NCBI GenBank assembly: GCA_021372615.1
Contig: JAJFUB010000121.1
Location: 62,001 to 126,000, forward strand
Direction of reading: 5' to 3'
Length of the DNA: 64,000 nt
DNA from: a bacterium
Lineage (GTDB): Bacteria > Armatimonadota > Zipacnadia > Zipacnadales > UBA11051
Shown: piece by piece, positions 40,995 through 43,164 of the stretch
Layout of the letters: each line of letters opens with the position of its first letter
How positions within the stretch are numbered: the first letter of the stretch is position 1
Program-made: the position numbers and the translations under genes
Notes under the pieces: model-generated
The model's input: the letters and a program-made list of their open reading frames with translations, nothing else
Databases searched by the model: none
Told to the model about the DNA's origin: nothing

Positions 40995-41522
40995 ATGAAG
41001 CTGAGACATGTCATGCTGTGTCTGGCCCTGACGGTCGCCGCCGCTCACCTGGTCGGCTGCAGGCCGCCAAGCGGCGGGAGCGGAACGGCCGCCGCATCTC
41101 GCACGGTCCGCGTGCTCGCCTACATCAATGTCAGCAGCGGGTGTCAGCAGGCAACGGTGGACTTCCTCCAATCGCTGCCCGCCAAGTACCCGGGGGTGCA
41201 GGTAGAGCTAGTGGACTTCGGTGATGGTGGCGCGGGTGCGGCCCGCTGGGAGCAATCGGGCCTCAAGTGCATGACCCTGGAGATCAACGGTCACTCCATC
41301 GTGAAGTTCCCGGTAGACGGCGCGGCCAAGGTGATGGCGTTCCGCGCCCCGGCCGGGCTCTACTGGACCCACGAGGACCTGACGGCGGCGGTGCAGGCTG
41401 CCCTGCAGGGGACGCTGAAGCCGGCCACGGAGGAGGAGTTCCTGAGCGGGGGTGGCTCGGCGCCCAGCGAAGGCGACCTGCGCCAGTACCAGTCACAGCA
41501 CAAGCCGCCGGCGCGGCAGTAG
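40995..41522 (+). CDS. Thioredoxin-fold-like lipoprotein
   Basis: 175 residues. The signal peptide ends in the lipobox HLVGC (Cys22). After a Gly/Ser/Ala linker the mature part (about 38-120) reads VRVLAYINVSSGCQQATVDF and continues CMTLEINGHSIVKF, a pattern consistent with a thioredoxin-like fold that has one Cys in the first helix and one near the edge strand but no CxxC. It may be a periplasmic redox or metal-related protein. It stands alone on the plus strand. A TAGAAT stretch near 40945 could be part of its promoter but no good -35 is seen. A candidate small RNA locus follows it. Confidence 0.65.
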   Translation: MKLRHVMLCLALTVAAAHLVGCRPPSGGSGTAAASRTVRVLAYINVSSGCQQATVDFLQSLPAKYPGVQVELVDFGDGGAGAARWEQSGLKCMTLEINGHSIVKFPVDGAAKVMAFRAPAGLYWTHEDLTAAVQAALQGTLKPATEEEFLSGGGSAPSEGDLRQYQSQHKPPARQ

Positions 41523-41617
41523 CCTCACGGGGCAGCAGCACGAGATCAGACGGCCCGCCAGAGCGGCGGGCCGCTGTGTTCCAGGGGCAGACTGTGGGAA
41601 AGGTGGCCGTGGCGAAA

Positions 41618-41685
41618 TACGTAGAACTACGTACACAGAATACGCATCAATGCGCATTGGCCGCCAGCCGACACTATGGTTTACT
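41618..41685 (+). promoter_or_regulatory. Candidate NarL-type regulated promoter with two 7-2-7 sites
   Basis: TACGTAGAACTACGTA (41618-41633) is a perfect inverted heptamer pair with a 2-bp spacer, and TACGCATCAATGCGCA (41641-41656) is a near-perfect second one, centred 23 bp away (about two helical turns). TTGGCC (41657-41662) and TTTACT (41680-41685) with a 17-bp spacer follow. If transcription starts near 41692 the sites are centred near -43 and -66, as expected for activation by a NarL/FixJ regulator. Confidence 0.5.
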
Positions 41686-41691
41686 ACTTGT

Positions 41692-41826
41692 GATGAGCGT
41701 GAAACGGCGGTGCGGTAGCGGGGGGAAGCCCCCCGTGGCTTCCGAGTTTCGGACCTGGGCAGGGTACCGAAAGATGTCATCCGGGGGGCATTGATGAGCA
41801 GCCGCTATGCGGCTGTTCATCTTTTT
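41692..41826 (+). ncRNA. Candidate small RNA of unknown family
   Basis: About 135 bases with no convincing ORF lie between the predicted promoter and a very strong terminator. Internal hairpins include CGGGGGGAAGCCCCCCG (41719-41735) and CCGAGTTTCGG (41742-41752). It points towards, and stops 41 bp short of, the convergent response-regulator gene, so no gene follows on this strand. I compared it by eye with c-di-GMP, SRP, 6S, RNase P and tmRNA consensus features and found no match. Confidence 0.4.
41793..41826 (+). terminator. Strong rho-independent terminator
   Basis: A 13-bp stem (GATGAGCAGCCGC with GCGGCTGTTCATC, one G-U pair, TAT loop) is followed directly by TTTTT on the plus strand. 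The minus strand has no T-run on its 3' side, so it serves plus-strand transcription only. Confidence 0.9.
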
Positions 41827-41867: not shown

Positions 41868-42515
41868 CTAGCGGTCGTCTGACTCCAGGTTCAGGAAGAA
41901 CCGCGCCAGCTCCACCTCGTTGTGTAGCCCCAACTTCTGCATCGCGCGCGACCGATGCGTCTCGACCGTGCGGCGACTGATGAAGAGCTGCCTGGCAATG
42001 TCGGCGCTGGTCCGGCCGGTGGCCGCCAGGCGGATGATCTCAGCCTCGCGCTCGGTGAGCTGGTCCAGCTTGCGCTCCTCCGCGCTGGGCACCCCGTCCA
42101 CATAGGCCGCGTAGGCGTGCTGAGCCAGCATCGGGCTGAGGTGCTTCTCGCCGGCGACAGCCGCGCGGATGGCCCGCACCAGCTCCTCCGCGTCCTCCTC
42201 CTTGTTCACGAAGGCCATGGCTCCGGCTTGCATCGCCTCGCGCACGCGGGCCTCGGTGGCCTGCCCGGACATCATGACCACCGGCACCTCCGGGTGCAGG
42301 CGCCGGACCTGCTCGAGCAGCCCCAGACCCGCCGCGCCGGGCACGTACAGGTCCAGCAGCAGCACGTCCGGTCTCAGCTTCTCCAGCAGCGCCAGTGTCT
42401 CGGGGGCGTTGGCCGCCTGCCCGACGATGTCAATGTCCTGCTGTCCGTCGAGCAGCAGGCACAGACCGTACCTCACGATCTCATGGTCGTCGGCACACAA
42501 CACCCGGATACCCAT
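41868..42515 (-). CDS. NarL/LuxR-family response regulator, no kinase nearby
   Basis: 215 residues. The receiver domain (1-120) has the acidic pocket Asp9-Asp10, phosphoacceptor Asp55 (LLLDLYVPG), Ser/Thr switch in MMSG and Lys in VNKEED. The C-terminal GerE/LuxR helix-turn-helix (about 150-210) reads LTEREAEIIRLAATGRTSAD then RTVETHRSRAMQKLGL. Regulators of this class bind inverted heptamers as dimers. No histidine kinase gene lies in the window, so it is an orphan here. Possible targets are the divergent gene at 42673 or the convergent small-RNA promoter at 41618-41685. Small cytoplasmic protein with a clear ATG start. Confidence 0.95.
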   Translation of the reverse strand: MGIRVLCADDHEIVRYGLCLLLDGQQDIDIVGQAANAPETLALLEKLRPDVLLLDLYVPGAAGLGLLEQVRRLHPEVPVVMMSGQATEARVREAMQAGAMAFVNKEEDAEELVRAIRAAVAGEKHLSPMLAQHAYAAYVDGVPSAEERKLDQLTEREAEIIRLAATGRTSADIARQLFISRRTVETHRSRAMQKLGLHNEVELARFFLNLESDDR

Positions 42516-42672: not shown

Positions 42673-43164
42673 ATGAACCAGGGCTGCCTGAAGGCCTTTG
42701 CTATCGTGCTGCTACTGCTCGGGGTGCTGCTGGGCTTCCTGGGGCTGGTCTTCGCTATCGCCCCGGGGCGGGCCGGCACTGGACTCGTCATGCTGGTGCT
42801 CGGCATCGCGATCATCGGCTTTGCGGCCACCCGCCTGAAGGCGATGCAGGCGCTGTCGCCGGAGGGGGTGGAGCAGCAGATCACCCGCGTGGCGGCGGAC
42901 TCCAACGGCGACCTCACCGTGGGCGCGCTAGCCGGACAGACCGGGCTGCCCGATAGCGCCGTGCGCGACGGCCTCCAGCGCCTCCTGGACAAGGGCCTGG
43001 CCAAGATCGAGTTGCGGGACGGCGTAGAGCACTACGTGTTCGCCGGTCTCAAGCAGGAGAAGATGATCAAGAAATGCCCGTACTGCGGCAATGAGTACCC
43101 CGTGAGCCAGGCCGGGCGGACCTGCCCCTCGTGCGGGGGCAACCTGGAGGTTCGGCCCCAGTAG
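42673..43164 (+). CDS. Membrane protein with winged-helix-like region and zinc ribbon
   Basis: 163 residues from the ATG at 42673, with GAGGAG eight bases upstream; the longer open frame is antisense to the regulator. Two membrane segments (about 5-30 and 35-52) are followed by a winged-helix-like block (about 65-115, ITRVAADSNGDLTVGALAGQ then GLPDSAVRDGLQRLLDKGLA) and a C-terminal zinc ribbon with CPYCGNEY and CPSCGGNLEV. Divergent from the response regulator across 157 bp, so the two may share control. It could be a membrane-tethered DNA-binding or scaffolding protein; no named family recognised. Confidence 0.75.
   Translation: MNQGCLKAFAIVLLLLGVLLGFLGLVFAIAPGRAGTGLVMLVLGIAIIGFAATRLKAMQALSPEGVEQQITRVAADSNGDLTVGALAGQTGLPDSAVRDGLQRLLDKGLAKIELRDGVEHYVFAGLKQEKMIKKCPYCGNEYPVSQAGRTCPSCGGNLEVRPQ

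Follow-up and report, generated by a model that had tools for sequence, protein, structure and literature searches.

Our analysis indicates that positions 41611-41826 of the window (the whole 64-kb stretch of DNA that was analysed) on balance probably hold a lineage-specific noncoding small RNA unit that is activated by the neighbouring FixJ/NarL-type regulator. The original prediction had described a dedicated RNA switched on through NarL-type sites; its observations are mostly right and its interpretation is right in kind, but off in detail. A dedicated regulator-activated RNA is still the best-supported reading, as both the sites and their promoter register recur at homologous regulators, whereas the NarL-type label did not hold and the RNA shows neither sequence conservation nor significant internal structure. 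From the sites, hexamers, terminator and recurrence that can be read in the sequence, we infer that the orphan regulator, when phosphorylated, would bind two TACGTA-type palindromes as dimers. The dimer centred near -43 from the proposed start would then contact RNA polymerase at a promoter with poor -35 and -10 hexamers, the upstream dimer (-66) would assist activation, and the resulting RNA would end at a strong intrinsic terminator right before the convergent regulator gene. The parts of the locus are as follows.

Intergenic DNA, 345 bp, between the lipoprotein-like gene at 40995-41522 (plus strand) and the response regulator at 41868-42515 (minus strand)
About 41550-41573: hairpin 3' of the lipoprotein-like gene, with a poor T tail
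41618-41633: site 1, TACGTAG-AA-CTACGTA, a perfect 7-2-7 palindrome of FixJ-like appearance, centred about -66 from the inferred start
41641-41656: site 2, TACGCAT-CA-ATGCGCA, pairing 6/7, centred about -43 from the inferred start and abutting TTGGCC
41657-41662, plus strand: -35-like TTGGCC, the same hexamer at the same offset as in the homologous loci L018 and L020
41680-41685, plus strand: -10-like TTTACT, weak, 17 bp after TTGGCC and in the register of TATGAT/TATCGT of L018/L020
41675-41680: alternative -10, TATGGT
41692-41826, plus strand: proposed small RNA, about 135 nt long from its putative start
Between the -10-like hexamer and the terminator hairpin: a stretch of about 100 nt
41793-41821, plus strand: intrinsic terminator hairpin of 13 pairs with a loop of 3, followed by T5 at 41822-41826
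41868-42515, minus strand: orphan NarL/FixJ-family response regulator of 215 aa with receiver and GerE HTH, the proposed activator

The two inverted heptamer pairs with 2-bp spacers are present as first described (7/7 and 6/7, centres 23 bp apart). The 7-2-7 geometry is not rare, since the window contains 20 perfect palindromes of this kind and also five pairs of a perfect and a near-perfect one whose starts lie 16-40 bp apart. The perfect site 1, TACGTAGNNCTACGTA, occurs a single time in the 6.4-Mb genome, with three other places at two mismatches, and TACGYAKNNMTRCGYA, a pattern itself derived from the two sites, matches only sites 1 and 2 without mismatch; TACGTAGAAC is present twice in the genome. 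When the consensus was used to look for a regulon, places with one mismatch were mostly found inside genes, and no clear promoter or terminator lies downstream of TCCGTAGAACTACGAA at C130:2602. Calling these NarL-type 7-2-7 sites is right for the geometry (inverted heptamers with a 2-bp spacer, as at napF and yeaR), but not for the sequence: the NarL palindrome is TACCCCTAAAGGGGTA (PMC4549865), and neither TACGTAG nor TACGCAT agrees with a NarL heptamer like TACCCCT. The phospho-FixJ operator oligonucleotide of B. japonicum contains TTACGTAGAACCC and shares TACGTAGAAC with site 1, an identity over 10 bases (PMC11164954), and fixK of R. palustris carries GTACGTAG (PMC13327599). The FixJ-type TACGTAG core is found in site 1, and site 2 (TACGCAT) fits it only in part, so that FixJ-like is a better name for the sites than NarL-type. 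NarL activates yeaR and napF from sites centred near -43 (PMC4549865), and the high-affinity site of StyR lies at about -40 (PMC2442086); site 2, at about -43 relative to the proposed start, is positioned as at the NarL-activated promoters and close to the site of StyR. This match to the FixJ operator, the centre near -43 and a terminator that is outstanding in the window all favour a regulator-activated RNA.

The response regulator expected beside the unit is indeed present and convergent with it, 42 bp past the RNA end. It matches Pfam PF00072 Response_reg (1.9e-25) and PF00196 GerE (2.3e-20), which places it in the NarL/FixJ (LuxR-type) family, and it scores below the cut-offs of both the NarL (134.7 bits against 250) and the FixJ (91.8 bits against 255) equivalogs of NCBIfam. 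Its best solved-structure match is NarL. The recognition helix of the window regulator reads SRRTVETHR and that of FixJ is SPRTVEVHR, with RTVExHR in common, and by its sequence the former resembles the helix of FixJ more than that of NarL. There are six GerE matches in the genome, four of them strong (at least 68 bits) and including the window regulator, and the other two (25-29 bits) are probably sigma-factor-like HTHs. That the unique perfect site adjoins one of the four strong regulators again favours activation by this neighbour; by a rough post hoc estimate, a randomly placed unique site would fall within 250 bp of any of the four GerE genes with a probability of <0.001. No FixL-type kinase lies beside the window regulator, and the sole HisKA_3 kinase found in the genome adjoins another regulator and may be considered a candidate partner. 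Upstream of the start of the window regulator itself we saw no FixJ-like site, and the local output may therefore be the RNA rather than autoregulation.

The regulator shares at most 45% identity with any protein in the phylum and about 40% with its best matches in the order, and a search of genome contigs with the regulator gave 44% at best, in Chloroflexi, and no close orthologue. Since the RNA also has no relative at the DNA level among related genomes, all of them from other genera, conservation was sought in the arrangement. Similar (TACGTAGAANTACGTA-like) sites adjoin homologous regulators, in the order and further off, at L003, L004, L012, L020, L033 and L117. In its occurrence close to the regulator gene at 51 loci, the motif outdid all but 1/250 scrambled palindromes at 12/14 and all but 3/250 at 11/14, in a sample in which L003/L004 and L018/L020 are same-genus pairs and most regulator loci are without a site.

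The top-scoring regulators of the order (G020, locus L003; G016, locus L004) have sites on both sides of the gene. Upstream, CGCGTAGAAATACGCA / TCCGTAGAAATACGTA is followed by TTGACT-16-TACAAT reading away from the regulator, and then by a candidate small RNA of about 110 nt (L004:1225-1335, minus strand; L003:2280-2391, plus strand) with a long closed hairpin and T7 (z = -5.0), of which about 70 nt are identical in both species while the flanks differ. Downstream, TATACT/TATAAT lies behind TAGGTAGTTCTACTTA / TGGGTGATTCTACGTA and GGTACGTATACC and is followed by a conserved noncoding stretch of about 190 nt on the regulator's strand (L003:1140-1340, minus strand; L004:2286-2480, plus strand; fold z = -2.5). 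A long frame in this downstream region was set aside as a protein, as the differences between the species are mostly amino-acid-changing and include a frameshift.

The promoter register of the window is found at two further loci. In G034 (L018), GGGTACAAATACGTA abuts TTGGCC-17-TATGAT 3' of the regulator, and in G036 (L020), TGAGTAGAAATACGTG abuts TTGGCC-17-TATCGT, likewise 3' of the regulator, so that the register from site through TTGGCC and 17 bp to the -10 is identical in the window, L018 and L020, and a TACGTAGAANTACGTA-like site abuts this promoter in two genera. Behind it lies a structured RNA (L018:1170-1352, minus strand; L020:2267-2455, plus strand; z = -5.4), in the stems of which 5/38 pairs have changed on both sides and are still paired (n=2 sequences). 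A covariance model of this RNA matches only those two genomes; it finds nothing in the remaining 39 of the order, and in G000 it matches neither the window RNA nor any other place. The composite promoter pattern occurs at six places in 41 genomes, while the controls gave no hit, three of the six being the window, L018 and L020, which had been seen before the pattern was made.

Similar sites, the promoter register and the conserved or covarying RNAs that follow them at homologous regulators thus favour the regulator-activated RNA. The reading is weakened because most homologous loci are without the site, because the composite pattern is post hoc, and because the RNA after the regulator in L003/L004 and L018/L020 shares the strand of the regulator instead of converging with it as in the window. 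It is also weakened by the sites at L033 and L117, which precede protein genes and argue that this type of regulator is not RNA-specific: at L033:3668-3717 (Chloroflexi), two TACGTA-type sites lie right after the regulator, before TATAAT and an acyl-CoA-synthetase-like gene, and at the more distant homologue L117, TACGTAGATATACGGA lies 110 bp after the regulator and the next gene encodes a protein. The RNA bodies are not homologous across genera, and on this comparison the recurring element is the switch, not the product. It is conceivable, though rather doubtful, that NarL/FixJ-type regulators of the order repeatedly carry a dedicated RNA beside their gene, with the TACGTAGAANTACGTA-like switch kept and the RNA body and orientation changing by genus. 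If the recurrence holds, promoters would have been kept while RNAs were turned over, which bears on the origin of new small RNAs.

The recurrence also bears on whether the unit could be a true small RNA gene that is constitutive or under another regulator, with the GerE neighbour coincidental. The genome has three further strong GerE regulators, and, since TACGTA is itself palindromic, the sites could serve proteins from other families that bind 10-bp direct repeats as well. The unique site, however, lies next to a member of this set of four, and homologous regulators too have similar sites close by; we consider this explanation unlikely. Marginally less likely again is that the unit belongs to the lipoprotein-like gene as its 3' untranslated region, with the hairpin at 41793 as a second, read-through-catching terminator. 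The gene is on the same strand and the first hairpin behind it has a poor T tail; this would leave unexplained the two sites, the register shared with L018 and L020 and the 220-bp spacing. The lipoprotein-like gene has no Pfam match; its own genome contains one relative at 55% identity, and 21/41 genomes of the order have relatives, mostly within longer open frames. On the other side of the unit, the next plus-strand gene starts only at 42673, so the unit is no leader of a nearby gene.

The promoter and the terminator of the proposed RNA gene differ in quality. The -35 and -10 hexamers with 17-bp spacing are where they had been placed, but are weak (4/6 and 4/6, the -10 without A at position 2), and TTGGCC-17-TTTACT is not among the matches of a sigma-70 scan. 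The terminator deserves the name textbook, its 13-pair hairpin and T5 being beyond chance: no other hairpin with 12 or more pairs and a T-rich tail was found on either strand of the 64 kb, and in six plus strands generated from a Markov model the same search counted 0, 0, 0, 0, 1 and 2. The 68% GC window is nearly devoid of textbook intrinsic terminators, with only three weaker candidates besides that at 41793. A chance coincidence of paired palindromes with a hairpin, in intergenic DNA that is antisense or not transcribed, would fit the abundance of 7-2-7 palindromes, the weak promoter and the unconserved RNA; it is improbable in view of the terminator quality, the uniqueness and sequence type of the perfect site, and the recurrence of such sites near homologous regulators.

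The body of the RNA gives little to hold on to. Omitting the terminator, it folds no better than shuffled sequences (z = -0.5), so the internal hairpins are no evidence, and this chance-level fold, together with the weak promoter and the unconserved body, counts against the regulator-activated RNA. BLASTN of the unit against its own genome and 60 relatives, none of the same genus, matched only itself; lack of conservation in relatives had been named beforehand as grounds for giving up the prediction, and the RNA sequence comes near to that in a comparison that includes no same-genus genome. A match to a known leader class, the other outcome named, was not found, as no Rfam family matched the unit at its gathering score. 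The match to SraL (RF01408; 21.8 bits, E = 0.007, gathering score 39) was judged chance, as were P9 and hammerhead matches below gathering; SraL is similar in its G-rich hairpin and long terminator, and differs in coming from an unrelated organism and sharing no RNA body. As first noted, the unit contains no convincing ORF, and a small protein or leader peptide is very improbable: a 33-codon frame is open from ATG at 41693 to TGA at 41792-41794, where it abuts the terminator, but its codon score is -0.38 bits per codon, where the median for genes is +0.53, with no Pfam match and no Shine-Dalgarno seen.

This particular RNA is new, and the circuit type is already known in other bacteria. UvrY activates the small RNAs CsrB/CsrC (PMC4682653), and the UvrY/SirA/GacA systems with CsrB/CsrC or RsmY/RsmZ are alike in that a LuxR/GerE-type response regulator acts directly on small RNA genes as its main targets, and these have an inverted repeat upstream (PMC4682653). 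They differ in the sequence of the site and in its position, far upstream in those systems and near -43 in the window, and in the window the genes for RNA and regulator lie side by side. Nothing suggests that the window RNA titrates CsrA, because 41692-41826 contains only two GGA triplets, unlike the many in hairpin loops of the CsrB/RsmY type. Compared to the FixJ promoters of B. japonicum and of fixK in R. palustris, which share the operator, the window's target is an apparent RNA and not fixK. The locus would offer a concrete regulator-RNA pair in an uncultured lineage, with an operator that is defined and testable in vitro.

The likeliest roles of the RNA are trans-acting antisense, or feedback on the regulator, whether by antisense pairing or by transcription that converges on the 3' end of its gene. 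On the minus strand 3' of the regulator, no T-tract stands behind the hairpin, so the regulator mRNA may extend into the RNA gene; this mRNA and the RNA could then act on each other as antisense, and a trans target elsewhere is possible as well. The unit also contains two short repeats. GCATTGATG at 41788-41796, right before the terminator, repeats CATCAATGC of site 2 (41645-41653) exactly, in inverted orientation, and TGATGAGC is found at both 41692-41699 (the inferred RNA 5' end) and 41792-41799 (the 5' arm of the terminator), through which the 5' end of the RNA could compete for the terminator 3' arm (seven pairs by eye).
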